Positions 5,690-35,365 of a DNA stretch of 64,000 nt are shown in pieces (position 1 is the stretch's first letter; each line of letters begins with the position of its first letter). Both the position numbers and the translations under genes were made by a program. Source of the DNA: Lineus longissimus (lineage: Eukaryota; Nemertea; Pilidiophora; Heteronemertea; Lineidae); the NCBI RefSeq assembly GCF_910592395.1, contig NC_088321.1:13330001-13394000 (forward strand), read 5' to 3'. Under the pieces are notes generated by a model that was not told where the DNA came from, searched no databases, and saw only the letters and a list, made by a program, of their open reading frames with translations.

Positions 5690-5848
5690 CCTAGTGCTCA
5701 AAGGGGCACAATAATTAGGCCAATACAAAGTCCTCTTCTTTAAATAATCAAACATAGATCTGGGATTGAAATACAAGTACTGTCATTGCTTAGCAAGGAC
5801 TCCTCGCCAGCTATGTCGTAAAATGTTTACGAACCTGATCTGTTGAAA

Positions 5849-11347: not shown

Positions 11348-12211
11348 GGGGTGTACCCCCATTTCGCCTACACCCATTTCGCCTACACCCATTTCGCCTA
11401 TTACCCATTTTGCCTACCCCCATTTCGCCTACCCCCATTTCGCCTATTCACCATTTCGCCTACACCCACTTCGCCTACTCACCATTTCGCCTACTAAAAA
11501 GGAAGAGTGGTGTGCGCTGGACATTTGAACAATTTTACCAATTGTTGAGCTTGGATTTTTTCCTTCATATTATAGCATATTTCCCAGTTAAACTTTACCA
11601 TACTTTATCATTCCAACCCGGCCTCTTGAGACAAGACCACCATTGATTTTTTAAGCCTTTTTGCAGTTAAATTGTCACAGTTTGACCGCCTTGCATCAAA
11701 TAATGCTTCGGGTTGTGAATCTGAAATTTGGATATGACATTCCAGACAGTCAGGCGAGTAAATGGTGAAATTTTATTAAAACTGGTGGTTGTCCACGAAT
11801 TTGTTTTCTTCAAATTGGACAAATTTGAGAGACCATGATATTCCACAGTTTTCAGCCAAATCATGACCCTACTTATGACCCTACTCAGTTCGTCTGATAG
11901 TATTTAGTTGGTATTTAGTTGGATAAACTGCATATTTCTAAAAGCGTTACAAAATTCTGGCACCAATAGACATTTCAAATTAGACTAGGAGGCTGAAACA
12001 TCTTTTGTATTTAAAGTCACTATCATAAAACATTTGAAATGATGTAGGCAAAATGGGTAATAGGCGAAATGGTGAATAGGCGAAATGGGTGTAGGCGAAA
12101 TGGTGAGTAGGCGAAATGGGTGTAGGCGAAATGGTGAGTAGGCGAAATGGTGAGTAGGCGAAACGGGTAAATTTTGTAGGCGAAATGGGTGTAGGCGAAA
12201 TGGGGATGAAC
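11348..12211. mobile_element. Foldback element B, arms made of CATTTCGCCTAC units
   Basis: The left arm (about 11350-11500) holds nine or so units of ACCCATTTCGCCTAC type. The right arm (about 12040-12211) carries the reverse-complement units GTAGGCGAAATGG. About 540 bp of AT-rich non-coding sequence separates them. Architecture, and the core TTTCGC(C)TAC, resemble foldback element A. Confidence 0.85.
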
Positions 12212-12535: not shown

Positions 12536-14436
12536 AATGCTGATATTTAGAAGTTAGTGCTTATGCAACTGAAAATTTTCCATTTCAAATTTTATACCAA
12601 TGGCATTCAATTTCAAAGTTTCCAATGGCATAAATACTTAGGCCTACAGAACATAAATTTCAGCATTGGTTGGTAGCAGTCTGCCCCATTTCGTTCCCAA
12701 AATCCTATGGAGAGCTAGCCCATGTGGATGACTGACCATCGTACTCCTTCATTCGCCCTAGAATACCCTACCAATACCTTACAGTACCCTAGCCAAGGGT
12801 AATTTTTTTGGTAAGGCGGTGTCCTAAATATTTGTTGCTGATGCTCTCATACCAAGTACATCATGCGGTATCTGCCTTCCCATCGAGTAGTGCACTGGTC
12901 GTAATGGGTATATTCAGTAGAAGATCCAAATAACTGCACATCACCAACATTTCCGAGTGTTTGGTTTTGGCCCATATCAGGAATGTATATATATTCGACC
13001 AGTCAGCTTTATAAAGAAACAATTAAATCCCTTTCGAAACAAACTACCAGCCATGTCGCCACTCTGTCATTGTCTCCAGCGAAAAATTGAACTTCTCAAA
13101 GATCCAACAGTCCAAGTGCAGGTCATGGCGATGAAATCATGTTACAGCAAACAGGCCGGGACAAGTGCAATTCCAAGTTAAGTTAGTCACAGAATCTTGC
13201 ACAAGTCGCATCCTGCTCGACAACATGGGCCAAGCCATTTTTTGCCGATGTTGGAAAAACCATGGAATAAAGATCCCATTTTAATTTAAGTCAAAAATGA
13301 AATTTTGCACAACTAAGAACGTTGTCGTCTTTTGCCCTGCTTGTCATCTTTTTACCTGCATCTTCTTCAGAACGTCACCTGCCTCGAAGCCTTTTTTCTA
13401 TTACGAGGCCTATAACTTTTTCCGTATACCTTTAATGGATTCCACAAACCTCCCTGGACAGTGTCACGAGTGTGTTAAGCTGTGATATAGGCCTAGCCTA
13501 GGCCTAAACTGATCCTGATACCAGTGACTGAGTGAGTGAGTGACTGCATAATGCAGCCCATCAATCAACGTTCATGACGTTGCGCCATGGGTCAACGTAG
13601 TGACCAATACCCCCAATTAGCATCACTGCCTAATACTGAAGTGGCCATGCTTCACATTAATAAATTTCGCTGTCTTTGTAGGACATTGATGGATTGTCGA
13701 ATCGAACATCATTGATTATCATCATCCATATCACCATCATGTCGAAACGCACATGGCTTCACCTACTGCGCATCGTTGTCTGCGCGCTTCCGTGGCCGAA
13801 AGGGATTTTGGCTTTGTGCGAAGTAGGTTTTCTTCATCGAGCAATATGATTTTTACAGGAATAGCGTGTATAAATAGTATGAATCTGCTATAATATTTAT
13901 GATTATGTTAAACAATGTTGCTTCAAAAGACTAGAAAGTCGGCAGAATTGTACAGTAACTGTTAAACTGAATTTCCTCGCGGTTCTCATGATGAACTCAT
14001 CCCGCATCGCATGGCCCCCGCATTGCGCATATGACATGTTTTAGCATTTGTCGGCCGTGTATGTTGTAAACATTAGAAACTCAGCCTGACCAACCAGAAG
14101 GACTGAGCGGTACCTCGGTTACAATCAAAGCCTGCATGTTCATCAGGTCAGTCACTGAGTTGGAGACGATTCGGAAAACTGAGCCGATTACAGCGGTCGT
14201 CCTAAACAGCGTCCACCAGCGCCCAACAGTGTCCGCCAGGGTTAAAGTCAGGTATAATAAAGTCATCACAATAAAATTTAGTAGCCATAAACGAAATAAG
14301 TATGCAATAAAACGCATTTCCTGAAAACTTCATGACACTTGAGTGTAAGATAAGTGAGATGTTGTCTAAAATCACAAGGCTCGATCCTGTCAATCATTAA
14401 GAGAGTGAATATTTTCTTTACTGCTATCTACTACAG
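12536..14436. other. Intergenic region upstream of the coiled-coil gene
   Basis: No convincing coding exon. A splice-acceptor-like pyrimidine stretch ending CTACAG at 14436, just 12 bases before the ATG, implies an upstream 5' UTR exon. One possible donor is GTCAG|GTATAA near 14250, but this is uncertain. Confidence 0.35.
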
Positions 14437-14448
14437 AATCCTGAAGCC

Positions 14449-17400
14449 ATGTCTTCGAGGAAAGAAGTCCTTGGTGTCTCCCAAGGATCCAGTCTCCTTC
14501 CTCTTCGCTTGCGACGGCAGCTTGCTGCAGCGAAATCAACACCAAGCCGCGTGACAGCAGCGCCACCTGCAGTTGAACAAGATGACAGTGATGACGATGA
14601 TTGCTGTATCATAGTGCCAGATTCTCCGAAAAAGAAGCTGGAGCTGGTCGAGGTTCCCGAGGAAGAAACGGCATCCACCAGTAATGCCACGAATGAGTCT
14701 GTGAGAGCTTCGATAGTTCGACAGTCTGAAGAGGGCCAAGGTAGGCCAAAATAATTAACAAAATAAGTTCAGTTCATTTTTTGGTTTAACACTTATAGGG
14801 CAGGACTCCTGGGATAACACCGGGATAAAAATTTATGAGGGATAACTGCATGAGATTTTGTACACCCTAAAGCTAAAAAATGGCAGGAAGTGGAGGGTCC
14901 ACTGAACACATTAAAAATTGGTGTGGCCTACAAAACATAAAATATGTTAATTACACTTTTCAGGTACCAACAGTGATGGCAGAACGGAAAAATCGAAAAA
15001 AACATTTCTGTCGAGTGAGTCACTTACAGCTCGGATCAGAAGAAACTTGCAGTATCTACGCGACGGGCGGGAGGCAACACCATTACCTGTTACACAGTTG
15101 CCAGCATCGGATGATGATGACGTTGGGTCCATGTCAGTCGGGGAGCTCATGAAACGAGCTAAAGGTATTAAGACTTAAAGGCCTATGTCGTTCGTTAAAA
15201 ATTTTGAACTTTTAATTGAATTTTAAAATGTCAAATTGCGAAAATACGTACTACATTGTATGTTGAACAAATGTTGCATTCACTGCTTGCAGGCATGGTT
15301 GTATTAACAAATGAAAACAAAGAGTTGAAGAGAAAGGTGTTGGATCTGGGCGCTCGGTTCAATTCGTTGGAGACTCGATTGCACCAGAAGGAGGGCCTGG
15401 TCTCGCAGTACGAGTCGGAGATTGAGACGATGACAGATTTGCTGAAAGATGCGGAAAATGAACTGGATAAGGCACACAAGGAACGGATGATGAAAGGCCA
15501 CTCGTCGGATGAGGTCAACAAACTCAATAAACAGTTACAGTCGCAAAAAGTAAGGTTGCAATCTCACTGTGGTATGTCTGGCCGCTGGGGTCTCCTAAAG
15601 CCCGCTACACACGAGGGATTTCTCACCAACTTAGTTGGTTTTTAAATTAAGAACAGGTGCACAGGTGACTGGAAGTTGAGAGTCGTTCACCCACTCACAC
15701 GAAAGACATAATCCCAGCAATATTTAGGGCCTGCACTATATTTAGGCCAAAACCTTGGTCAAGGCTAAGATAAAGAGTCAAAATATGGCCCAACTATGTT
15801 GTTGACTGAATCACACGGGGAAATTTCTACCCCACACTCCTTATATAAACAAAAAAATCCTTATATAAACAAAAGATGTCGTCGAGAAATGGAACAAGTC
15901 GGTAGTGCAGCCAGCAACTCCAACTAATCGGGCAAAGTATCAGTTACCTGGTCTGGATTCCTGTTATGAATTAAAATTCCAACTAAGTTGGTGAGAAGTC
16001 CCTTGTGTGTAACGGGCTTTAGATCTTGCAAGAGCTCTGCGAGAGGTCCCTGGTTCGATTATCACTGTCGGTGTGAAAGTCTCGGCTGGGCTTTTAAGGA
16101 ACGGCGTAGGCCTTTAACCACTATGCCACTGGTAGCCGTTTACTGCTTGATGACATTTTGCACTGTTTTTATTTCAGGAAGCTCAAGAAATGCAGGACCA
16201 GGCATTGAACGAACTGCAGCGGCAGCTCAAGGCCAGTCAGGCGGAAAACAAGACGCTAAAGTCGTCAGTATCAAAAGCGACAGAGGCCGGCCATCGCGAG
16301 GAAAAGGACCTCACCAAGAAGACACAGGAGATCGTCAAGTTGAAACAAGCGCTAAAAGACGCCGAGACGTCGTTGACTAAAGAAAAGCAGGAGAAGAAAC
16401 TGGCAAATTTGGCGGAGCAGAAAGTGAAGTCTGAGATGATTTACAAGTGTAGCTTGTTGACGATGAAGACAGAAAAGCTGCAAAAAGTGAGTTTTGGGAT
16501 AATTAGTAGCTGATAGTGATATGAATAAAATTCACGGTTAAAATATTCCATTTTATCAATCGAAATTGATTCTTTTGTACACAATCACATATTTGGCCTA
16601 ATTTCCAGGAGGAGCGAGAGGTGGCGTCCTACCAAGAGAAACTGAAGCGCTCGGAGGAGGTCAGACGAAAGGCACTCGATGTCACCAATATGTGCTATAG
16701 TACCATTGGGGCGATGGCCAAGGAGTTGAAACGATGCAAAGAGATCAGTTGCTCCCTCAGCGATCTACTACAAGAAATACAGGTAACATTTTAACCACTT
16801 ATTAATGCCGCATAAAATTGGTCGCTTTTCTGCTATGGAAACTTGGACAAGCTCCGGCAGAGTTGTTCTCGGCTGAGTTGTTCTCGCCTCGGGTGCAATA
16901 ACCAAGCCGACTTTGACTTTCATTTCACTGCTACTAGTCTTTGAAGCAGGCTTGCTGATGGAGTGATTGATATATGCTTCTCTTCTGCAGCTGAAACTCA
17001 TCGACCGCCAAGTCAAACAGATAACGGACGGAGCAGGACGCACTGACATCACAATGGATCAAAATCTAAAAGAAATGCTCAGGAAAATCTGGGAAGTGCA
17101 AAAACAATTCCGCCCAGTCATCCTTATCGATGTGAAAGACGACAACGTCGGGAATATCAGGAGCAATGTTACGGAAGCACCAAATATGGATACTGGGACT
17201 GGTACCAGTGGCAAAGGGAAAGGGCGTGGTAGGGGAAGGGGACGAGGGAGTATGAAGGGCACCCCGAGTGTAGCTTTGCCCTCGGCACCAGCTATTACAA
17301 ATATTCCCGGTGACATGACGGAATTTGACGAAAAGACGCATCAGAATAATAAGTTGTTGTTGCAATGTTTGGATTTGTTGGCCGTGGCGCATAGTGATGT

Positions 17401-20400
17401 GTCGTCGAAGGAGACGCAGTTGGCAGGGCTGAGCGTGGAGTTGCAGGAAGTTCGGAAGGATCTCCAGAAGAAGGAGGAATGTTACACGATTCATGTGTAT
17501 GAGCAGAGCAAGGAAAGGGAGGGACAGATTGGGGTGAGTGTCAGATTCATGTATATGAGTAGAGCAGTGTAAGGGGGGCCGAATGGGGTGAGTGCGCTTT
17601 GATTCATGTGTATAATCAGAGCAGTGTAATGGGGACCGAATGGGGTGAGTGTGCTTTGATTCATGTGTATGATTAGAGCAGTGTAATGGGGACCGATGGG
17701 GTGAGTGTGCTTTGATTCATGTGCATGATCAGAGCAGTGTAATGGCGACCGATGGGGTGAGTGTTCTTTGATTCATGTGTTTGAGCAGAGCAGTGTAATG
17801 GGGACCGAATGGGGTGAGTGTGCTTTGATTCATGTGTATGATCAGAGCAGTGTAATGGCGACCGATGGGGTGAGTGTTCTTTGATTCATGTGTTTGAGCA
17901 GAGCAGTGTAAGGGGGAACCAAATGGGGTGGTTGTTGTTTGATTCATGTGTGTATGAGCAGAGCTGGGAAAGGGGGAACAAAATGGGGTGGGTTGCAGGA
18001 TTCATACCAGTTTACATATATGGAATATTTTTAATCAAACGGCATTAACAGATAAGATACCTCATGAAGACGGACATGCTCATCATTTGTCTTGAAGGAT
18101 GTGACTATTTTAGTTTTGTTTGTTTTCAGGATTCTGATGCTGAAGGTGGAGATGATAACACGGGCAGTAAGGTAATGCAAATTTCTCAAATTTTGATTCC
18201 TCAAATGTTTTTTTTCCATTATCTGATGGGGTTAGGTCACTAGCAAAACTCCTAACTCTCTTCATTTTTTCAACTGGGCCCTTGACCAGCTGAGGCCGAG
18301 TTTTATGAGTATATGCCCTCGTCAATAGCATTCTGCCATAATGACGTCATTGCAACTGCTGCCCTCTATTTCCCCATCGCTGAATTACAGGCAATTTTGG
18401 ACAAACATACAGTTTCGTAATGGATTCAGGCTTTCTAACTAGGGCAGTTAGATTGAATCTGGCACATGTTCGAGTGGCGAGAATACTACACAATTGTTTT
18501 GAATATTTTTCTCTCTGACTCTATGTCATCATTCATGCTAAAAACAATGCAGGGTTAAAGATAATTGACTTTGAAATAAGCTCAAATGCGTAGAAATAAG
18601 TGTAGATGTCCGACTGTCACGTGACTAAAACGTCATCGATATATTATTCAAATGACCTTGTGATCTATAAAAGTAATGTCGCGGGATGCTATTCCTTTAT
18701 CTATTGCCCAGGCAGTCCAGAGGGTCATCACGTCGTATGCCGCCTTACCAAAACCCCTCGACTCGACAAGTCCAATCAAGGAGCGTCGCTCGAGCGCGAA
18801 TGTCACAGTGATCCCGGCCAATGACGCAGCGCAGGAGAAGATGAACGTGAGGATGGAATGCGAGAGTGACGGTGAGATGGACGAGGGGTCAAGGACACTC
18901 GGCATACAGACAGAACCAATCAAAGATCACGTTCTGGTGCTTATTGACTCGGGTAAGGAACTGAGTCTTGTTTGATGTACGGTGGACCCTCCCTCAGCCT
19001 GCAGTTCTCTACTTAGGACACCCTCTCTAACCACTAGTTTGGGGATTGAATGAAACGATCAATTTTTTTGTTTCAAGTCAATCCTACCTATCTAATTGGG
19101 AAATGACAGAGGTCAGTCCCAAGAGTGTCCTTAATAGAGAGGTTCTAGTGTAGTGTTTTAATGTTGAGGGGTGAAAATGGCCGGTTGTTGGAGAGCACGT
19201 TAGCTGTTAAAGTGATAACTACTGCGGGGTTCACCAGGAATGACTCATGCCATTCTCCAGTTATCATCATCATGTGTGCAAAAATGGCCAGATCACAGAA
19301 TGATGCCGATTTTTCAATGGCTTATTATCAATCACAACAGCCAATTTCTAGGTGCACATTTTCAAACAAATTCCTGATGTTTCTAGTTCATGATGTCATG
19401 ATGAGGAACCTGCACAACAAAACCTGCCAATAGGGGGTTATGCAGGCAAGTGGACCATGGTTGTAGTGAGAAAGCCATTCTCCGGGTCAATGACTATTGA
19501 ATATTTCATCCCTTAATCATGTTATTTACTCTACATGGGGAAATAGCACCAAAACCGTTGTTTTATTGGTCCTTAATTCTATTTTGATGAGTTTTAGGAA
19601 GAAAATCAACAAAAATTAATTTTCATGGAAAATGCACTGGCAGTGTACCTTTTAGTACTGGTGCTGCCATCTGGACTTTAGTTTTGCAGGTTCCTCATTG
19701 TATTAAGTTTTTCTGCTTTGCCCCTTTCGCCGACAAGAAAACTAATTTCACGTATCTTGAATTCAGATGATGAAAATCCTGTAGTCATAAGCGATACGGA
19801 GGACGAACAAAATTTATCCATGGACGGGGAGTCTAGAAGCGTAGGCATTGGTGTTAATACCAGCGCAAGGTATCGCCCCGATTCCAATCCAACAGATATC
19901 ACAAAAGACGAAAAATCAAGCTCACCAGTCAAAGCCTTATTGACAAACGTCACAACAATACCGCAAAGTTTGTTTGATAACTTTTCCACGCCTTCAGATG
20001 ACGTCTCCACCTCGCAGGCAGATGAGGAGAAATCTACCAGTAAAAATGACAGTTCTGAGAATATTAAATCTTTTGATGCGGAGATGAGAGTAGACGCCGA
20101 CTTGGTTGCACCTCGTGAAGATGTGAAGGAGGAAGACGCGTCAGATTCTAAAGAGAAATCCCTTTGTAAAGATGATGCGACTGACAAGATTAAGGCTTTA
20201 GAACTAATTGATGAGCTCGAGAGCCAGAAAGTCGACTTGAGCAGGGGCCCGCCAACAGCTCGGTATACTATCAACCAGATTATGATGGCGCGGATGATGC
20301 TCAAAACGAAGCGGGTGGGTTCTTCGGGTGTGGATGGAGACGCAAAGGGTGCAAGTGAAGCTGAGCAAGGTTCTGAAGGTGGCGTTGAGAAAACCAGTGG

Positions 20401-20872
20401 TAAGGAGTCGGACTTGGATCGGTCTGCAGAAGGAATTGATCAGGATTTGGAAAAAGACGCAGCAAGCGAAAAAGCACATTTGACTAAAGACAAAGCAGAC
20501 GTGCAATCAGTACCATCGAACGAGAAGTGCGTATCTCAGAATGATGAGCAGTCGAAAGAGGTTAGCACAAGTGCTGAAAATACGGGCACTGCTGAGCGGG
20601 ATTCGGATGATCAGGTGGCTCCATCTGCTGGAGATGAGCCAAGCAATGAAGTCGAGAATGATATTATGTCAGAATCGTTGTCTGTTATGAAAAGTCTGGC
20701 GGAAGATGCAGCAAAACTTTTTGATTTTGACGACAAGGGGGGAAAGTCTGATGATACTGCAGAACCACCTAGTGGCCAGTGTCAGAAACGGAAGCATTCG
20801 GCGGATGATGATGATGATGTCGATGATGATGACAAAAGTGAAAAGAAACAGAAGCGAGATGCGAGTGACTAG
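14449..20872 (+). CDS. Large coiled-coil protein with several SUMO-interaction-like motifs
   Basis: Nine exons join in phase into 1,054 aa: 14449-14740, 14964-15164, 15293-15549, 16178-16486, 16609-16782, 16991-17533, 18130-18171, 18712-18952 and 19767-20872. Family not recognised. Residues about 165-470 are Lys/Glu/Gln/Leu-rich heptad-like sequence (ENKELKRKVLDL, KQALKDAETSLTKEKQEKK), predicting coiled coil, with a second stretch near 540-590. Residues near 490 hold a GR dipeptide run (GKGKGRGRGRGRG). Hydrophobic cores beside acidic or Ser residues fit SUMO-interaction motifs: CCIIVPDSP (about 52-60, after DDSDDDD), VILIDVKDD (about 454) and a tandem pair VLVLIDSDDE and PVVISDTEDE (about 679-699) spanning the exon 8/9 junction. 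The acidic, Ser-rich tail ends in basic clusters (KRKH, KKQKR) that could be an NLS. Inferred: a nuclear SUMO-binding scaffold. The ATG has a purine at -3. Confidence 0.85.
15596..16021. mobile_element. MITE with about 52-bp terminal inverted repeats
   Basis: The left end TAAAGCCCGCTACACACGAG continues to CACCAACTTAGTTGG. The right end carries the reverse complement, ending TGTGTGTAACGGGCTTTA. TA flanks both termini. The inner sequence is non-coding. It lies in intron 3 of the coiled-coil gene. Confidence 0.8.
16030..16135. mobile_element. tRNA-like fragments beside the MITE
   Basis: The plus strand has a B-box-like GGTTCGATTATC at 16052. The minus strand has an A-box-like GTGGCATAGTGGTTAA at about 16115-16130. 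The opposite orientations suggest two SINE scraps rather than a tRNA gene. Confidence 0.3.
17489..17997 (+). repeat. 57-bp array amplified from the exon 6 splice donor
   Basis: The first unit is coding (it starts at GATTCATGTGTATGAGCAG) and ends in the real donor GGGGTGAGTG at 17534. Eight further units follow in the intron at spacings of 56-58 bp. The first six keep GGGGTGAGTG; the last two have decayed it (GGTGGTTG, GGTGGGTT). Confidence 0.9.
18978..19151 (+). mobile_element. Pogo-like MITE copy 3 (intron 8)
   Basis: It runs from ACGGTGGACCCTCCCTCAGC to AATAGAGAGGTTCTAGTGTA, with inner 'acttaggacaccctctct' and 'aatcctacctatctaat' phrases shared with the copy at 39518. Non-coding. Confidence 0.6.
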
Positions 20873-22499: not shown

Positions 22500-23278
22500 A
22501 AGAAGAAAATGAATGCCGTGGTCACGACGTGGCAACGAGTTTGTGGCATCTGCATTGCAATGGAATATTTGAGAGACTTTGTTAATACACCGTAAATATT
22601 AGAAGTGTCATCTCCTGACTGACTTGACTGTAGAAAGTAAAAGTCGAAACAAACCAGTACTGTAATAATTTGAATATTTAATGTATAACTATAGATGAAC
22701 AATGCTACAATAATGCCACCATTCATCACATGAAATGGTATCGATCAATATCCACAAATGGATTGAGTATTTAGCTAGGGAAGAGTGTAAAGGTTGACAC
22801 AACCAAAGATAAATGAACCCAAATCATATGAACCGGATAAACACTCCCAAACATGAAACTGATGATCAGATTGAGATGTAATTTTCATGTACATGTAAAC
22901 TTTCATTTGAGGTTAACATTGCTTATTTGTTTGTTTAGTTTGGCTTGGGGTCCATCCATTTGTTTGGTATGTACACACTGAAGGGGAGCGGGTCTGGGAG
23001 TTTTGGGGAAAATGCTTACACTTGTGTATTTGCCCTGTACATTTTGTCCTAAATGTGCGTACAGGGGGGGGGGGGGGGGGTCTCAAAATCCCCAGTTTGA
23101 TGCGTACATACATTATGGATGGTTGTTTGTTTCATTTGGCTTGTTTCAACACATACATGGTACATTCAGTGTCACAAATGTCAGCTTTAACTCATCCGCA
23201 GTCCACTAAGCAAAGGTGGTCCACCGAATCCACAACTAAGAGGGAAGATATCAATCTTAGGAGTGTCCGCTCAAACGC
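22500..23278. other. Region downstream of the pogo-fusion gene
   Basis: Apart from a run of about 16 G at 23066, nothing supportable is seen. It presumably contains the 3' UTR of the minus-strand gene. Confidence 0.3.
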
Positions 23279-26200
23279 TCAATACCAGAAACCGTGAGCC
23301 TTATCGTGGTCCTGTTCCTGACAAAAAGATGTCACATCCAAATACGAATCATTTCGTATCAAATTCGATTCGGACCCATCCACAGCATTGGAAATTCCGC
23401 AAACTTTAAAAGACTTCTTGATCGTCTGTAAATTGTCCCGCCAAACCTTCTCCCAACCTTTTACAACCCATTTCGCGACTGATTCCATTTCTTCATTCGT
23501 CCAATGAGCGCTTGGCATGTTGGCTAACTTGCTGACCGCTTCATTGACCGTGTGGAACCACGACTCTTTTAGATGTGAGCGGAAAAGTTTACAAACGCTG
23601 ATCGACACCGGTTGTAATCGCGAGTTGCATCCCTCGGGTATCACTGCTACGATGACGTTGTACTTGGAGAATAAATCCATGATGAATTCGACTCTGTGAG
23701 GTTCGTATGAGTCGATGACGAGGAGGGATGGGCGGCCATGCGTGTACGGGAGGAGGACGCGCTGGATCCACTCCACCATGATGCCCTGGTCAACGCTGCC
23801 TTTATCCGTTACCTGAAGGATGCAGTGCGGGGGTGTATCGATGTCAGCATCAGATTTACCTGGAAGAAATGTTTACAAAATATTTGTATTACGTTGGATT
23901 AAAATTAGAGTACTAAATTAATATACGAGACAAACGCAAGAGCAAGGTTGGCCCACTTCAGTTCCAAAACTAAGGTCAGCAATAAGTGCCTCAACTCACT
24001 AGGTGACACGACATTTGTACAAGGAACATGTCTATTAGTTTCAGAACTGGTAGAGCCTGCTTCAACTTAGTAACTGTGGACAATAGCCGACTGGACACCA
24101 CTTGAACCCCCCTAATTCCTCCTGCCTGTAGTCCGATCAAAAATTTATACAACGGAAAGGGTGTCGGTTACATTGTAGTAACTGACACTTTTAGCAAATT
24201 TCTTGGAGTCCCTGGTACCGTGCCATCTTGTTCATCAGACTCCTTGCTCGACTAAAATCTAAATAATTTTTCAATGATTTTGTTTGGCGACAGTTACGGT
24301 CTATTAAATGGGAGCCCTTTTTGCATGAAAAACCAACATACTGTATCTCCCTCGTGCTCAAGTTGTTGCTTTAAAACATTGTTGTAACATTGACAGTTAA
24401 AACATTCTAGGATTTTACCGACGACAATAAGTTTTAATCATATCATTTACCTTTCATGACCAACATTGGCTTCAATCCCTTCCCCTCGCCCGTCACCGCT
24501 CCGAGCAATGTCAAGTGCTGTTTCCGCCCAATCGTCACACGAACGACGACTTCCTGTTTCACCTTCGTTGACGTCTTCATCTTTTTACCCGTCAAATCGA
24601 AGTAAATCGGCACCTCATCCATGTTGATAATCAGCGATGGATCAATCGAGTACTCCTGTCGAATCTCATGAATCTGGCGTTGAAATTGGGTAATCAAGTT
24701 TTCCAATTTCGGCGGTAACTTTTGCGACATTGGCGTACGACCATCAAGCATTGCCACATGGCGGTTCCGAAATTTCGCAACCCAACCATGCGATGCTTTG
24801 AAAGACTCGCACCCGTCAACTTGGCGGACAATTTTTCCAGCGTAATTACCAATATCGTCCACGGTCGTTGGACGATGCAAATCCCGACATTCTAAAATCC
24901 ATTGCAAAATCAATTCATCCACTTCATTCCCATAGCACAATTTTCGTCCAGAGCCGATTTTTCGCCCCGATGTGGGGTCGCGATTTGCATCTTTCTTGAA
25001 CGTCCGCTTCCAGCACGATATCGTAGAGACCGGTATATTAAGTTTGCTCGCCACCGCCCTCCCACCGAATTCCTCCGCCAACTTCAACAAGTCCTCCTTC
25101 TGTTGATAGTTGTACGAGTTATATTTCCCGCCACGCAACGACTTCTGCACGACCCAATCTGGTATTGCAGAATCCGGAATCACGCTCCCACGATCGACAT
25201 GTATGATCTTATCTTTCTTCGGGCGGCCACGTTTCTTTTTCCCAACCTCATCCCCAGTCAGTTCAACCTCAGGTTTAGCAGTTTCGACATTTGTCACTTT
25301 CTTTTTCGGGGGTTTGCTGCAAGGTTTTATGATAGCCCCCGGGCCGACAACAGAAGTTTCAGCCAATGTCTTACTGGTACCCTCTTTGTCAAGTGATTTC
25401 TCCCCAGTGTCATCATCGCTTTGGTTTCTCTCGGCTCTCTCAGAGGTTTTCACGTTATCGTCATTTGATTGCACCATTTTATCTGCCTCCGATTGTGTGT
25501 TAACCCTTTGTTCCGGCTTACGTTTCCTGGGAAACTTCTTCCGAATCTGCGGCAATTCCCTCAAATCAATCTCAAGATTTGAATCTAATAGCTCAACATT
25601 TGACGCATGATCTTCACCATCACCAACAGTGGATCTCTTCCACATTTTCCCTTTTCTCTCCTGATCACCTCGGTCTTCCAGCTGCTTCTTAGTTTTAGAG
25701 GCACCCACCCAGTCATCTCCATCAGTCAATTTTCGCTTCCTCATGTTATATGCACCCTCATGATCATCTCCATCTGCCAGTTTCCGCTTCCTTGTTTTAG
25801 ATGCACCGTCATCTACATATTTCTCTCCCTCCTTCAACTCTGATGGCAATGTAATTAGATTCCCCATTTCTTTAGATGCTGCTTCAGGACCACAGGAACC
25901 AGCCAAGGGTGCTACATCCAACATCACAGTATCACTGTTCCCAGCAACAGGTTTTCGTAAGTTGTGTCTCATTGGATGCTTGTATTGTTCTGCACTAGGG
26001 GTCGGCGGAGTCCTTTCAATTTTCTTCGGCCTTCCTGCTTTACGTTTTGTCTACAAAGAGAGTGATTTAAAGGGATTCAGAATCAAATAAGTGTACCAGA
26101 CCGGGCTCCTTAGCCCTGGCAGACAACAATTCTCAGGGATGGTAAACTCAGCGATTTGTGTGCTGGGTTGGAGAAGCGAACATTAACCCCCCCCCCCCCC

Positions 26201-29200
26201 CCCCCCGATTTCCTCAGGATGAAGCAAAGCTCAGGGATGTGGAAAGTTGTTTTTGCATTTTAGACAGAAAAATGGAGAAAAAAAATTGAATGTTGATTAT
26301 GTTCTTTGCTTGGACTCCTCGAAATGATAACAACAACATAGTACCCACCTTAGGTGTGTTTGAAGCGCTCCGTACCACCTCATCTGTAGCGACTCGTACA
26401 GGTGCTGAACTTTCATTTTCCTGCCGTATCTCTTTATTTTGGCTCAGTCTGGTCTTGCGGGGACGGCCTCTCTTTTTGTGTGGGGCAGAAGGTTCCAAGG
26501 CAGCATTCTCCACTGCTGCTAAGGTGGTGCCAACTTGCCGCCGACACGACACTTCACTTGTGATATTCTGCTCATGATGAACTGGAAAACAAAAACCTAT
26601 ATCTCCATTTACCAAATTACTGTCAGCCCGGACATTTTCGTGAGCCGTTTATTTTCCTGTTAACAGATAATCGAGACAATATCATGACAATGACCTCGAA
26701 AATGAAAATCTAAATTAAATTATTGCTACGGATTGTCAAAACGCTGAATTAAAAGTATTGGTACGCACATTACAATTATTTCAAAAAACCGCATAATAGA
26801 ATGGCCTCAAATATTAAAAAGTTGTAGAACATTTCATCACAAGCTACTCAAGTTTATCAGTCGGTTTGGTCTTTTGAGAGAGGTTCTATTATACTTTTAT
26901 GGTGGTGTTTATTAGGTCTGCCTACCTGGCTGAGAAGTCTGTTCTGATCTGCCCTCCTCTTCCTCTGATTGTTTACTCATTGCAGGTAAACCTTCCGGTC
27001 TCTTGGCATTCTTGGTAGGACCACACATCTTCTTGAGGAGCTCCTCAGTTTGGACAGGAGCTGGGTCTTCATAATCACGACTGGTGCCAGCAACACTTGA
27101 GCCATGTTTCTGTTTGCTAGGAGTGATGTTGTCCTTGGCGACAACAGTTTCCATGGTGTCACCACAGGGACCAATAGCAACAATAGGGCTAGCAATATTG
27201 TCCTCTCCACATGTGGGTTCCACAGCAACTGAAGTTTTCATGGTAACAGTGGGTTCCACAACAACTTCTACTTCTTTTGCAACTGTAGAGCAACAAGATG
27301 CTGTTGCCATGGCAACATGACTTGTTATTGGAACCCCGGACACACCTGACCCACTTGACACCTCCTCTTCTTCACCGATAACCGGAACCCCAAACACTGG
27401 AGACTCACAAACCTCGACCGTGCTGCTTATTTCGTTTGAATCATCCGGCGTTGGCTTAAAAATTTGTAAACGTGTCGGCAGGTGTACATAAAATCCCCTC
27501 GCATGTCTTTCCCTTGTGGCTTGACTGACTGTCGCTGAACGCAGTCTCTCCTCTGGTGGATCCCCCTGTTGGGTACTATCAGGTTCACACGTCACCACCT
27601 CCACTTTCGTCCTCTTCTCAAATTCTTTCGACGTATCTTCCAACTTTCTTCGCCGTGGTTGCTTTGCGGTTGCGTTTCTGTGGCTACTTGTTGAACCTGA
27701 GGGTCTGGGCAAGTCACTTCTCCCTGTACTACTAACACTACCTATTGGCAGTTGGGCTGCACTACCTGCTGCTGCAGATGGCGCCCTGGGGCTTCTCCCA
27801 TGAGCAGAGTCTTTAATCCGCGACTGATTGGTGATCTCGCAAGTTTGTGACAGTCTCTCTATCACTGTTGATGGAGCTGCATCAGCAAATGTCAAAACTT
27901 TACGGTCCATTTTCAACTGATTTCCATTTGTGGTCTTTTCCTCTTTTCGTTCCATTTTTACAGATTGTACAGGAGTAGTGTCAGGTGGATTATAGGTGGT
28001 GCTGGTATGAGGTAGATGCAATGACTGTTCAGGCCTTTTCACACTGGGCAGTTGACTTGCTAACGAACACAGTAGGTAATCCTTTAAAGGGCCTTTGATA
28101 TCATTTGAATTCATTGAACTGAACGCATTGCTTGATTGCGTAAACGAACTAATACGAGGTAGAATATTTGTACCAATCCCATCCGGAGTAAAATACAACA
28201 CATTTTCTTTCATAGAGTTCAACTGGACTAGCGTCGCAATCTGTGGTAATGAAGTACTTTGGCCACTAGATGGTGTATTACTGAATTGACTACAGGAAGC
28301 AGTTTCTACGAAATCGGTATTTTCAGTTTTTGGAGTCGCCATCTTGGATGATTCGGAGTACAACGCCTTATCGTTTTCTGCACGTTGGTTGTGGTTTATC
28401 TCTGCATGCTTTTCTGGAATATAGGTTGATGTCGCCAGGCCAGCTTGTACCAACTGAGCGTAATTTTCTTTATCTAACGCAGGATCGCTGGGCGAGGCCA
28501 TATACTGTAACTGGTACTGGGCATCTGCGGCATCAGACTGCAAATGCCCACCAGGCTCCTGATATGAATAAGCCTGCCCCCTATCTTTAGCATTGGAACT
28601 AAAACCAGAATAATTTCCCCCTGAATAGTCAGTATAGTTGGTAGCTCTTTGATAGAGGACAGAATCCTGAGATACATTTGACATTCCAAGATGCAGTTCG
28701 TCGTCATAGCGTTCGTCTTGTGATTCGCTAGTTTCCTCTGCATACAAAGGAGTGGCCTTTGTTTGCAATGCAGTGTAATAGCTGTGATCCAAGGCGTTAA
28801 CATGTTCGTATCCCATATTCGACAGTCCAGAACCGGTCACACTCTGCGCCAACATTGCGTAATTGTGAAACAAGTCGATTGGGGTCGTCGTTTGCGGATA
28901 GTACGCAGATTCTAGTTCCGGGTCTTCGGCCGGTTCGTGCAAGACTGAATCATCCTGGTTCGTACTCAAGGAGTCATGCGAGTAGGAATAACTGGAATCT
29001 GAAGTCTCTAAGCTCGTTGAACTTGAATTAGCTGTAGGGTTTTCGTACTCGAATCCAGAATGTTGCACAATGGCTGTGTTGCTGATGTAGTGTCTGTCAA
29101 CTGCTGAAGTAATACTCTGACTGGTGTCTCCCGATTGCACGCCTTCAACAGAGTCCGAGGTGGACCCGTGTTTACTCGATGTTATCGTTTTGCTGGGATA

Positions 29201-31027
29201 ACTATAATTGGGAACAAGGGCGAAGGCACTATAAGACTGATCCGCTGTGATTTCCACTCTTGTTCCAGGGTCATGTTCCGAGGGTGGCAGATGAGATGCA
29301 CATGAAGATGCCGCTGCGATGGTTGTGAGAGAGTAGCCATAGTTTGGCACAATCGAACTGCTACTGAAAGAGCCTGACGTTGGTGCATTAATATCTCGAG
29401 TCTCAGTTCCTGCGTGGACTGAAGTTGAAGACACTGAACCTCCTGACTGACTATAATCCAAAGCTCGAGACGTCTGAACTGCATTATCTATTGAAGCCGA
29501 CTGACTGGGCTCAGCAGTTAGCTTAGAGAAATTGTAACCTGAAGGAGGCAATTGAGACGAATTTGAATCTGTTGCAAATGAGCTGGCCCCAGAAGCAGTG
29601 CTTTGATACATGTAGTAATCAGGTTCAATTCGACTGCGCGCTGCATTTGTCACTTTCGAGCCAATATTTGATGAGGACTGCGGACATCTCTCATAGTTGT
29701 TTTCCAGATTCTGCGATACTGAAGTAATTGTATCGTTGATGGCAAAGTCGGACTCTGTGGCTGTGGTAGAATATTCATATTGTGATGAAGATGTTCTTGG
29801 CGCAAGTGATACAAAACTTTCCTGACTTAGGCGCCGTGCCAATTGAGAGTACACCTGTGGAGAGTCGTATTCTGAAGCCTGAGCTGGCGGAGCTGAACTT
29901 GTCTCGCGATTTAGCGAACGCGCAATCTGGCCGTAAGCATAACTAGCCGCTCGGATTTCTGAAAGAGTCTGGTCCAAACTTAACCCCATTTCTGATGACG
30001 CCACGCTAGATGTTGCAATTGTACTCAAGTCTACACCCGTTTCTGATGGCTGGGAATAGTTAGCATAGACTGCATGTTTACTCGATTGTACCACATCAAC
30101 AGCTTGTCTACCAGCATTTGCACCCGATATAGAAGGATAATAGTACCTTGAATCATACTCAGGTTGCACTTCAGACACTTCAGTCTCCTCGGTTTTAACC
30201 AGACTTTGATCGTACATGCTGAAGGTCAACTCAAGCGAGGACTGTCCATGGCCGGCAGTCCTTCCATAAACATGGTCTGTATAGCTATCTGAATGTCCAC
30301 TGACCTTTTCCTCTCTCTCATCACTTCGGCAGCTCCCCTCCTGCTTCACCTGGCTGGCATACAGCTGGGCAGAATACACTGCTGCTATTGCCTCAGGCGT
30401 CATGGAAGCATAAGCCTCTGGCAATTTCTCCTCTACCTCATCACTCAGTGTCCCCCGGGGCGTCACCTCACCCGTTTCTGTTAGCTCGTAAGACACAACC
30501 CTACCCCGCGACGTCTCACTCCGAACGCTTGCCTGGGACACGTGGTATGTCTTTGATATAGCTCCTCTCTGCAGTGCCTTCGCCTTGGACCGACTATCAT
30601 TAGCTCCACAAGGGAACTGGAGTTCACCAGCATATCCCTGCTCATTTGTACTTTGAACAGACTGCAGGCCACTTGAATTAGATTCAACAGGGCAGCGATC
30701 ATTCACGGTCTGAACAGAATGCAGTTCATTGAGATTTTCAACAAGTTGTGTCCCACTCATACCAGCTTGAACAGAAACTGACTGTGCTGCTGCAGTGCAC
30801 ACAGATTTGGAAGTGAGAACTTTTGACGTGTTTGTTGCAGCATCCTGGCTCTCTGCCGATGTTGTTTGTGTTTGTGGCACCTTAATCCCGGACATGTCCA
30901 GCGACGAATTTGAAGCATTGTTGCTGCAATTGAGCTCTAGTGCAACTGGAGGAGAGGTCTTTGAGGCATCGTCAGCCTGGGTAGTGCTGATCTCACCAGA
31001 CGGCGAAACAGTCTTCCTCTCTTCCAT
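23279..31027 (-). CDS. Domesticated pogo transposase fused to a Ser/Tyr-rich low-complexity region and AT-hooks
   Basis: Four exons join in phase: 31027-26926, 26581-26349, 26050-24451 and 23859-23279, giving 2,171 aa from MEERKTVSP. An acceptor at 31063 means 5' exons exist; the start could be further up. Residues 1-1367 are Ser/Tyr/Thr/Gln-rich (YSYPSK, YGYSLTT, DYSGGNYSGF) without a recognised domain. Three AT-hooks follow, with GRP cores near 1406, 1451 and 1720. A helix-turn-helix (EDLLKLAEEFGGRAVASKLN, about 1762-1816) and a CENP-B-type second HTH (about 1817-1881) precede a pogo-type DDE_1 domain: Asp1 in INMDEVPIYF (about 1923), Asp2 in LVIDSYEPH (about 2028), and Ser at the third position in LQPVSIS (about 2064), where the family has LQPLDVS. 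Inferred: a host DNA- or chromatin-binding protein without cleavage activity, comparable in concept to POGK/POGZ. An intron splits the DDE domain. Confidence 0.88.
26185..26208 (+). repeat. Poly-C tract in an intron of the pogo-fusion gene
   Basis: An almost uninterrupted run of about 22 C lies between exons 2 and 3 of the fusion gene. A simple mononucleotide repeat. Confidence 0.9.
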
Positions 31028-31224
31028 CTGTTTAGGTGACGACAAAATGAAAATGGTCAAACCTGAAAAGAAAAAAGGGACAAGACGATAAAGCATCAAA
31101 TTTAAAATTTAAAAGGACTCTTGCTGGGATCTGTCTTCCATTTGATACGGCCTCTCTTCCCTCTCCCTGGTTTTGAATAAATGTCTCCCTAATCTCCCTT
31201 ATTGTGAAAATGTTGTGACTATGT

Positions 31225-31280
31225 CTTCACTCTAGCTGGTTGTGATGTCTTCACTCTAGCTGGTTGTGACAACATCTCTT
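31225..31280 (+). repeat. Outlying satellite-like units
   Basis: TCACTCTAGCTGGTTGTGA occurs twice in tandem. The phrase CTGGTTGTGAC is the hallmark of the satellite starting at 32381, so this may be an eroded edge. Confidence 0.45.
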
Positions 31281-31552
31281 CTGTTTTCACAGTAGACAGA
31301 ATGCCTCCTCTCTCTCCTTAGTTGTGGCCGGCTTTTCTGCTTATGGGGCCAGGGGGTCAGCCTTTCATGTTCTATTTTTCTCACATCAGCACATGACAGG
31401 AGTACACGGAAACATCAAAGGCCAACAGCAGAAGTCTGTCACTCTTTCCCACAGCAAAGCCTCTCACCAGAGGGCCATCACTATAGGTAACAGGCGAATT
31501 GTCTACACTGCAGGGGTTATGATTACACTAGGGCAATAATTTTAACCACTTT

Positions 31553-31680
31553 ACAGTCCAAATCACAATTTACATCGGTCCTGCTTCGCGTCAGTGACAG
31601 TGACACGCCACGCACACGAGTTGCGTGCCAATGACGCACCAGTGACACGATTATCTATGTTTCACGCATAAGAGCTCAAT
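31553..31680 (+). mobile_element. CAGTCC-type MITE, left part only
   Basis: It starts CAGTCCAAATCACAATTTAC and continues with a CpG-rich inner part (CTGCTTCGCGTCAGTGACA, GACGCACCAGTGAC) shared with the full copy at 51457-51675. It ends near a G-rich simple repeat (31712-31738), and no right terminus is seen. Confidence 0.7.
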
Positions 31681-32549
31681 AACACTGTCCCCCCGCCCCA
31701 CTCGATTCGGGGAGGGGGGGGGGGGGGGGGGGCGGGGGGACTATTGAGGCTTGAGAGCTTATTTTCACGTGCCTGTGATTCAGATGAAAATGGAATTTTT
31801 TTCACTTTTGGGTACGTCAATTTCACATTATGACATATAAGTGATACTGTGTCATAATTTTTAGGGTCCTGATATATTACCTCTAAAACTTTCAACGCAA
31901 AATATGCCTCTGTCATCTTTTTGACGTTTTAAATCCGAAAAGATTGCAATAAAAATAGTGCTAAAATTTTAGAATCTCCATTTTCAATTATGCTACTGCG
32001 CATCATCAATTACGCATAGGAGGATCGATTGGGTTTTCGTCGCCGAAAAGGTTCAACTTTCTAACACCAGGATCGCTGGTGAGAAAAATACCGTCCTGTC
32101 GCTAAGGTCTCGTTAGGGAGTTTTTCCCAAATGTACGCACATCCCAAGTTCAGTGTACATACCTCGGCAACAACAGTTAATGCACAGTTTCTTGTTAGCC
32201 GCCTATTGAGTAGCGCTCGAGGTTTCAGAAACTCCAAAAAAACATGTATTTGCCAAAACAACTGCTAAATTAACACTGACATACTGTGAGGACCGAGAAA
32301 TCAATGAGTTTAAGAACTGCGGTTAGGGCTTGGCCGCACATGAATACAAAAAATCCTTAATGAGACCTAATAAAATAAAAGCCTGTGGTCTGGTTGTGAC
32401 AGTGCCAGGCTTGCTGTTGAGGAAAGTCTGGCTGTGACCAAGTCTTATAGGCTTGCAGTGATAAAGGCTTGTTGTTGCTGAATGAAATTTTGGTTGTTAC
32501 AGTGTCTTTAAAACGCTTTTGTGACTAAATGAAAACCTGGTTGTGACAA

Positions 32550-32665
32550 TGCGTGATATGAATAAAGACTAGCAAATGCTTTTACGGAAATTTTCTACAG
32601 AAAAGCCAAATGTAAATGTAGAAGTTGCAGTAAAAGCATTTGCTAGTCTTCATATATATCGCCCA
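32550..32665. mobile_element. Hairpin MITE in the satellite, copy 1
   Basis: GTGATATGAATAAAGACTAG at the left is matched in reverse at the right (TGCTAGTCTTCATATATATC). Arms are about 35 bp and the total about 115 bp. It has no coding capacity and is the most diverged of the three copies. Confidence 0.75.
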
Positions 32666-33334
32666 TTGGCTTGCTGATGTGACCAAAGGAACGCCAGCTG
32701 GTTGTGACCACAATAGGATTGACAACATCTGATTGGTTTGCTATGGCCAAAGAAGTGCCTGGTTGTGACAGCCATAAATGCATGTTGTTGCTAAATGAAT
32801 GCCTGGTTGTGAGGACCTGCTGTGACTAAAAGAATATCTGCTGGTTGTGACCGTCATAGGCTTGGTGACTGAAGGAACGCCTGCTGGTTGTGACATCCAA
32901 AGGCTTGGTGTCGCTAAAGGAAAACCTGGTTGTGACAATATCTCATAGGCTTGCTGTGACTTAAGGAATATCTCCTGGTTGTGACCATCATAGGCTTGGT
33001 GACCAAAGGAACACCTGCTGGTTGCGACAACCAAAGGCTGGGTCTCGCTGAAGGAACACCTGGTTGTGACAATATCTCATAGGCTTGACGTGACTAAAGG
33101 AATGTCTGCTGGTTGTGACCGTCATAGGCTTGGTGACCGAAGGAACGCCTGCTGGTTGTGACAGCCAAAGGCTTGGTGTCGCTAAAGGAAAACCTGGTTG
33201 TGACAATATCTCATAGGCTTGCTGTGACTAAAGGAATATCTGCTGGTTATGACCGTCATAGGCTTGGTGACCGAAGGAACGCCTGCTGGTTGTGACAACC
33301 AAAGGTTTGGTGTCGCTGAAGGAAAACCTATAGG

Positions 33335-33450
33335 CTGATATGAATAAAGTCTAGCAAATGCTTTTATTCAATTTTGTACAGAAAGGTCTGGTGTAAATGT
33401 ACATGGAATTTTAGATAAAAGCATTTGCTAGTCTTTATTCATATCACCCA
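33335..33450. mobile_element. Hairpin MITE in the satellite, copy 2
   Basis: Same inverted-arm element (AATAAAGTCTAGCAAATGCT … AGCATTTGCTAGTCTTTATT) ending ATATCACCCA. It interrupts the satellite in the middle of a unit. Confidence 0.85.
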
Positions 33451-34338
33451 TTGCTGTGACTAAAGGAATGTCTGCTGGTTGTGACCATCATAGGCTTGGT
33501 GACCAAAGGAACACCTGCTGGTTGTGACAACCAAAGGCTTGGTGTCGCTAAAGGAAAACCTGGTTGTGACAATATCTCATAGACATGCTGTGACTAAAGG
33601 AATGTCTCCTGGTTGTGACCATCATAGGCTTGGTGACGCTAAAGGAAAACCTAGCTGGTTGTGACAATATCTCTTAGGCTTGATGTGACTTAAGGAATGT
33701 CTCCTGGTTGTGACCAAATAGGCTTGGTGACCAAAGGAACACCTGCGCATGCTGGTTGTGACAACCAAAGGCTTGGTGTTGCTAAAGGAAAACCTGGTTG
33801 TGACAATATCTGGTAGCGCGGCTTGATGTGACTAAAGGAATGTCTGCTGGTTGTGACCACCAAAGGCTTGGTATCGCTAAAGAAAGACCTGGTTGTGACA
33901 ATATCACATAGACTTGCTGTGACTTCCTGGTTGTGACCATCATAGACTTTGTGACCAAAGGAACACCTGCTGGTTGCGACAACCAAAGGCTTGGTGCCGC
34001 TAACGGAACACCTGGTTGTGACAATATCTCACAGACTTGGTGACCAAAGGAACACCTGCTGGTTGTGACAGCCAAAGGCTTGGTCTCGCTGAAGGAACAC
34101 CTGGTTGTGACAATATCTCATAGGCTTGCTGTGACTGAAGGAATGTCTGCTGGTTGTGACCATCATAGACTTGGTGTCGCTAAAGGAAAACCTGATTGCG
34201 ACAATATCTCATAGGCTTGCTGTGACTTAAGGAATGTCTCCTGGTTGTGACCATCATAGACTTGGTGACCAAAGAAACGCCTGCTGGTTGTGATAACCAA
34301 AGGCTTGGTGTCGCTGAAGGAAAACCTGGTTGTGACAA

Positions 34339-34459
34339 TGGGTGATATGAATAAAGTCTAGCAATTGCTTTTACTTCAGTTTTGTACAGAAAGGCCCAGT
34401 GTAAATGTACATGGAGTTTTAGATAAAAGCATTTGCTAGTCTTTATTCATATCACCCAA
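34339..34459. mobile_element. Hairpin MITE in the satellite, copy 3
   Basis: The most complete copy: TGGGTGATATGAATAAAG at the left, CTTTATTCATATCACCCA at the right, giving perfect 18-bp termini. The inner loop (GTACAGAAAGGCCCAGTGTA) matches copy 2 closely. Confidence 0.85.
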
Positions 34460-35365
34460 TGGGCTTGATGTGACTTAAGAATGTCTCCTGGTTGTGACCA
34501 TCATAGGCTTGGTGACCAATTGAATACCTGCTGGTTGTGACAACCAAAGGCTTGGTATCGCTGAAGGAAAACCTGCTTGTGACAATATCTCATAGGCTTG
34601 CTGTGACTAAAGGAATGTCTGCTGGTTGTGACCATCATAGGCTTCACCTGCGCATGCTGATTGTGACAACCAAAGGCGTGGTGTCGCTAAAGGAAAACCT
34701 GGTTGTGACAATATCTCATGGGCTTGCTGTGACTAAAGGAATGTCTGCTGGTTGTGACCATCATAGGCTTGGCGACCAATTGAATACCTGCTGGTTGTGA
34801 CAACCAAAGGTTTGGTATCGCTAAAGGAAAACCTGATTGTGACAATATCTCATAGGCTTGATGTGACCAAAGAAATATCTGCTGGTTATGACCACCAAAG
34901 GCTAGGTATCGCTAAAGGAAAGCCTGCAGCTGGTTGTGACAATATCTTATTGGCCTGTTGCTAAAGCCATGAAAGCAGTCTGGTCGTGACCCTAGCTTTA
35001 GACTTGTCTTTGCAAAAAGGAAAGTCTGGCTGTGACCGTGTCTTATAGTCTTATAGACTGTTCAGTGCTAAAGGAAAATCTGGTTGTGCCTCTATTCTAT
35101 AGGCTTGCTGTGACAGGAATGCCTGGTTGTGACAGTACCATAGGCGTGTTGTTGCGATAGGAAAGCATGGTTGTGACAATATCTTATGGGCCTGTTGCTA
35201 GCCAGGAAAGCAGCCAGGTCGTGAACCTGACTGGAAAGCCTGGCTGTGGTCGTGTATGTCTAAGGTTTGCGGTTAGTGCAAAAGGAAGACCTGGTTGTGA
35301 CTCTATCTTATAGGCTTAATACTGTGACTGGAATTGCATGGTTGTGACAGCTAGTACCATTGGTC

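Follow-up and report, generated by a model that had tools for sequence, protein, structure and literature searches.

A large predicted chimeric gene with a probable domesticated pogo transposase in the ribbon worm Lineus longissimus

The window analysed here, a stretch of 64,000 nucleotides from the ribbon worm Lineus longissimus (contig NC_088321.1, positions 13,330,001 to 13,394,000), carries on its minus strand a predicted gene, in which a very large exon of biased composition is joined, through segments with AT-hook-like motifs, to a pogo-type transposase module. A first, sequence-only reading had described four open exons with exactly matching phases, and this description is borne out by the coordinates, by the GT-AG donors and acceptors throughout, by the junction phases of 1, 0 and 1, and by the identity of the joined protein to a public model. 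The exons, in window positions, are as follows:

Exon 1, 26926..31062, minus strand: 4137 nt; a brief 5' leader ahead of the ATG (31027-31025), followed by 1,367 residues; no Pfam domain (E up to 1); conserved islands
Exon 2, 26349..26581, minus strand: 233 nt; AT-hook-like KKRGRPRK at residue 1403; Pfam AT_hook at 15.8 bits, under the cut-off of 17.4
Exon 3, 24451..26050, minus strand: 1600 nt; two AT-hook-like motifs, KAGRPKK at residue 1449, close to the exon start, and KKRGRPKK at residue 1717, ahead of the DNA-binding domain
Exon 3, continued, 24451..26050, minus strand: helix-turn-helix (HTH) region and HTH_Tnp_Tc5; D1923 as the first catalytic Asp; opening ~20 residues of the Pfam DDE_1 match
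Exon 4, 23279..23859, minus strand: 581 nt; bulk of the Pfam DDE_1 match; D2028, and S2064 replacing the third Asp; TGA stop at 23281-23279

The introns measure 344, 298 and 591 nt, and the spliced frame remains open from exon 1 through the TGA, giving 2,171 residues counted from the ATG at 31027. From MEERK on, the joined protein is identical to the NCBI protein P0008 (Lineus longissimus, 2171 aa), whose model is itself a prediction; the gene model is thus already public, under the misleading name 'serine-rich adhesin for platelets-like'. By simple arithmetic the chance of three phases matching by accident is about 1/27. Since the DDE_1 match occupies residues 514-678 of the 726-residue join of exons 3 and 4, and the exon boundary near residue 533/534 falls inside it, that splice is supported independently of the NCBI model.

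The transposase module and the exons ahead of it

Both domains that had been read from the letters are recovered by Pfam in exons 3 and 4 above their cut-offs, HTH_Tnp_Tc5 at 37 bits (cut-off 22.2, E 3.3e-9) and DDE_1 at 67.5 bits (E 1.5e-18), the latter covering profile positions 6-174 of 177. Weaker Pfam matches are to HTH_23 (E 0.023) and, under its cut-off, to Mst1_SARAH (E 0.012), while among Protein Data Bank (PDB) sequences only 1hlv, the DNA-binding domain of CENP-B, matches at E up to 1 (E 0.0042). Alignment with relatives places the catalytic triad at D1923 (residue 478 of the exon 3 and 4 join, just ahead of the DDE_1-matched stretch), D2028 and S2064, that is D-D-S, the last two lying 35 residues apart, a spacing found also in P0002-P0006. 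The intact D-D-D/E triad expected of an active pogo transposase is absent. At the third site the aligned Lineus DDE_1 open reading frames (ORFs), 31 in number, have D in 25 cases, a gap in 5 and Q in 1 (L020, the end of which appears out of register), and the outside relatives P0002-P0007 have D in 6 of 6. The module is thus complete in length, as the sequence-only reading held, but not in its triad, and to judge from the D-D-S residues it is probably catalytically dead.

A similar qualification applies to the large N-terminal exon, which had been called a low-complexity region of some 1,370 residues. Its size (1,367 residues) and its richness in Ser, Thr and Tyr stand (Ser/Thr 24.9%, Tyr 4.4%, Trp absent). 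'Low complexity', however, is too strong, because low-entropy sequence (12-mers with an entropy of 2.2 bits or less) makes up 8.8% of the exon, against 2.8% of the module from residue 1715 onward, and because the exon contains conserved islands. It is better described as a compositionally biased and, judged by that composition, probably disordered region. Among the best 7,990 word-sharing candidates scored, exon 1 has at least two matches, one of which is P0008. The metagenome protein P0009 (1,539 aa) is identical to it at 639 of 1,315 aligned positions (49%), with some 100-residue stretches reaching 60-67% and others falling to 22%, and it has in common a basic stretch at about residues 1122-1141. 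SUMO-type [VI]KxE motifs number 3 in exon 1 against 0.38 expected (P 0.003), but with seven patterns tried, a broader pattern at P 0.073 and an aligned counterpart in P0009 for the residue 1023 motif only, we set them aside as evidence. Likewise, the three AT-hooks proposed earlier are found as three GRP-core motifs by pattern, of which Pfam reports just that of exon 2, below its cut-off.

Copy number, terminal repeats and relatives

How the module stands to the transposons of the same genome can be judged against a search of 391,118,348 bases, the published genome being given as 391 megabases (PMC8593623). DDE_1 elements abound in the Lineus genome: all 150 of the best 150 scored, out of 1025 candidates, lie above the cut-off. 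When the 457-residue module is searched against the genome at the protein level it yields 94 rows, consisting of the two window exons and 92 others at 24-31% identity, counts that are lower bounds inasmuch as the best 93 of 995 candidates were scored. At this level the module appears to be single copy. At the DNA level, each of 33 fetched Lineus DDE_1 loci matches another fetched locus (33/33, 29 of them at 94% or more), whereas the window stretch 22800-32600 has no DNA match to any of the 33.

The same difference is seen in the flanking sequences. Inverted repeats of 27-39 nt, 78-100% complementary, flank 6 of 6 control loci picked from the 33, whereas the same repeat finder gives none that is convincing around the gene among the best 25 of 42 pairs. 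These 25 longest pairs are mostly poly-C/poly-G, plus three others: a hairpin upstream of the gene at 32547-32668 (a 47-nt inverted repeat, 83% complementary, with a 28-nt loop), a pair within exon 1 (27509 with 30591), and one that spans the gene (23322-23343 with 31902-31923, 22 nt, 77%), which we take as chance because one arm sits in the coding sequence of exon 4. For a terminal-repeat relic of the form TACCGTATTT...GTATAA the window as a whole gives a single match with 3 mismatches, at 1600 and well away from the gene; at least one such match occurred in 8 of 100 shuffled controls. The sequence-only reading had itself raised the possibility that the DDE exon belongs to a recently spread, multicopy transposon with intact terminal repeats. 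This is rejected, since the module appears to be single copy among the best candidates scored, the gene region has no DNA match among the 33 fetched loci and, unlike the controls, it has no convincing flanking repeats.

As a separate observation, four of the Lineus pogo-type elements (L011, L012, L014 and L016) bear TACCGTATTT... terminal repeats, and in three of them (L012, L014, L016) the matched stretch is free of stops. Since the best DNA matches of the four to other copies are 97.7-99.8% identical, they have probably been active recently.

A diverged relative is the metagenome protein P0001 (542 aa), which matches exon 3 and has non-matching residues on both sides, as would be expected if its frame ran on into introns where the splice sites are conserved. 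With the window protein it shares 88.2% identity over the first HTH region, 88.7% in the HTH_Tnp_Tc5 region and 91.4% thence to the end of exon 3, but this drops to about 72% just ahead of the HTH and to 39.3% in the linker that exon 3 also encodes. Such a contrast inside a single exon would be expected if purifying selection acted on the part derived from the transposase, with the proviso that it is a protein comparison and not a ratio of nonsynonymous to synonymous substitutions (dN/dS). The AT-hooks of P0001 comprise an identical KAGRPKK, an altered KKPGRPKK and an additional KRRGRPPK.

In a tree the window protein and P0001 group together (100/100), with a long stem and separately from those Lineus elements that the tree contains. 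The nearest transposases are P0004 (99/96), P0002 (97/88) and P0003 (95/95), although joins between long branches, including the one that places P0004 beside the window protein, could be spurious. These three are European Nucleotide Archive (ENA) DDE_1 proteins of 477-574 aa without a large N-terminus, unlike the window gene with its 1,367-residue exon 1; P0002 and P0003 keep D-D-D and in P0004 the first catalytic residue is G, whereas the window gene has D-D-S. With its Gly, P0004 is perhaps another domesticated or decayed copy. With P0001 or P0009 as query no relative was found in viral contigs, and among 3,489 candidates the only long protein (about 1.2-3.8 thousand aa) with the module is P0008 itself.

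A domesticated chimera and the alternatives

That a pogo transposase has been domesticated into a chimeric gene is, on these comparisons, well supported, and the domestication proposed by the sequence-only reading is upheld by the apparent single-copy state of the module, the absence of convincing flanking repeats and the 88-91% identity of the module in a diverged relative. More specifically, the locus would be a domesticated, pogo-derived host gene, the product of which is probably a catalytically dead nuclear DNA-binding protein with a disordered N-terminus; we put the probability of this reading at roughly 0.72. A complete pogo-type transposase would have been captured behind the large disordered N-terminal exon and the AT-hook segments. 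The protein would then enter the nucleus, bind DNA specifically through its bipartite helix-turn-helix domain and loosely, through its AT-hooks, in AT-rich minor grooves, without cutting DNA, while conserved short motifs of the disordered N-terminus could recruit partners. In this way it might act as a regulator of chromatin or transcription in the manner of CENP-B, POGK or POGZ, a step suggested by the domain content together with the comparison with these three proteins.

Several points weigh against this reading. The gene structure, with all of its junctions, is a prediction. P0001 and P0009 are separate metagenome records that may come from different organisms or different genes; P0001, moreover, ends before the third catalytic site. 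Any old insertion would be expected to lack terminal repeats, and their absence alone is no proof of function, and the likeness of role to CENP-B or POGZ is one of analogy.

A tentative elaboration, which we consider possible but doubtful, is that the gene encodes a nemertean-specific chromatin factor convergent with CENP-B. With help from the AT-hooks, the pogo DNA-binding domain would bind satellite DNA or what is left of pogo terminal repeats genome-wide, and the giant disordered N-terminus would concentrate partners at these sites, either silencing transposons of the source type or marking centromeric or heterochromatic sites.

Of the alternatives to domestication into one chimeric gene, the one that survives best, in itself unlikely, holds that two adjacent genes, one for the disordered protein of exon 1 and the other a pogo-derived AT-hook gene made of exons 2-4, were merged by gene prediction alone. 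Consistent with this, exon 1 and exon 3 have their relatives in two distinct metagenome proteins, from contigs of different length, a stop occurs in the exon 1 frame 14 nt beyond its donor, and the join of exons 1 and 2 is a predicted one. Against it, the donor and acceptor are canonical, the phases match across an intron of 344 nt, and the NCBI model covers all four exons; no search was made for a separate first exon of exons 2-4. Quite improbable is a decaying pogo transposon, in or near a host gene and without host function. The abundance of DDE_1 elements in the genome would favour it, and the loss of the third catalytic residue is a possible outcome of decay, but the spliced module has no frameshift or stop (the TGA counted in the exon-3 row of the genome search is where the match overruns the donor), it appears to be single copy, and its high identity to P0001 beside a linker at 39% is contrary to decay.

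We consider it very improbable that the protein is a recombinase that still cuts host DNA. Two of the three catalytic Asp and the full domain length are retained, but the third position, at the 35-residue spacing shared with P0002-P0006, is occupied by Ser, where 25 of 31 Lineus frames (5 gap, 1 Q) and 6 of 6 outside relatives keep D. The NCBI name would make the protein an adhesin, secreted or at the cell surface; this has serine richness and nothing else in its favour, and the hydrophilic N-terminus MEERKTVSPSGE (no signal-peptide program was run), the basic stretches, the AT-hook motifs and the transposase DNA-binding domain reduce its likelihood to a negligible one.

Known pogo-derived genes and the surrounding window

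The repeated domestication of pogo transposases, which the sequence-only reading took as its background, is well documented in the literature: at least 12 vertebrate genes are named in PMC7386202, in which CENP-B, POGK and POGZ are called chimeric, several domestications are discussed in PMC7325037, and CENPB-type domestications are described in molluscs and other lophotrochozoans in PMC10027918. POGZ, a vertebrate, Passer-derived gene (PMC7386202), resembles the Lineus gene as a large chimeric protein in which HTH_Tnp_Tc5 and DDE_1 are combined with a further region, but it has zinc fingers and retains the triad DD35D, whereas in the Lineus gene the further parts are AT-hook motifs and the disordered exon of 1,367 residues, and the triad is DD35S. 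Similarly, TIGD2, a Tigger-derived gene of mammals (Theria; PMC7386202), has Ser in place of the third catalytic acid, yet is listed at about 525 aa with no additional domain and with DD34S, a spacing of 34 rather than 35. CENP-B is likewise pogo-derived, and its DNA-binding domain supplies the PDB match; its CENP-B_N and dimerisation domains, however, are not reported in the Lineus protein by Pfam (E up to 1, filters applied).

A very large disordered region combined with AT-hooks and a D-D-S transposase is not an architecture in the table consulted in PMC7386202. The word 'nemertea' does not occur in the main text of PMC7386202, PMC10027918 or PMC7325037, nor does 'lineus' in that of PMC10027918, and no literature on the gene or its architecture was found among the matches listed from open-access sources. 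What is new is the partner and the lineage; the process, pogo domestication, is already known. If confirmed, the gene would show that transposase capture was repeated independently in a ribbon worm, and because the genome still contains multicopy DDE_1 relatives whose terminal repeats can be read, the binding of domesticated pogo proteins to living transposon ends would be directly testable.

The window contains C2H2 zinc-finger genes or exons on both sides of the gene, and also a further series of open frames:

3257-5782, minus strand: C2H2 zinc-finger gene or exon
57647-59140, plus strand: C2H2 zinc-finger gene or exon
62292-63782, plus strand: C2H2 zinc-finger gene or exon
14401-20872, plus strand: open-frame series, maybe one multi-exon acidic, coiled-coil-like gene

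Four pieces of the 14401-20872 frames gave no Pfam domain above cut-off, and a search of the window for tRNA genes found none. Two pairs of oppositely oriented short tandem-repeat arrays, 9952-10149 with 10246-10379 (GTCGTTTCGCTACATG versus CATGTAGCGAAACGAC) and 11354-11494 with 12036-12206 (TACACCCATTTCGCC versus GGCGAAATGGGTGTA), look like non-autonomous elements with repeat-bearing ends. Upstream of the gene, at 32818-34903, lie long tandem arrays with units near 91 and 134 bp and with CTGGTTGTGAC.

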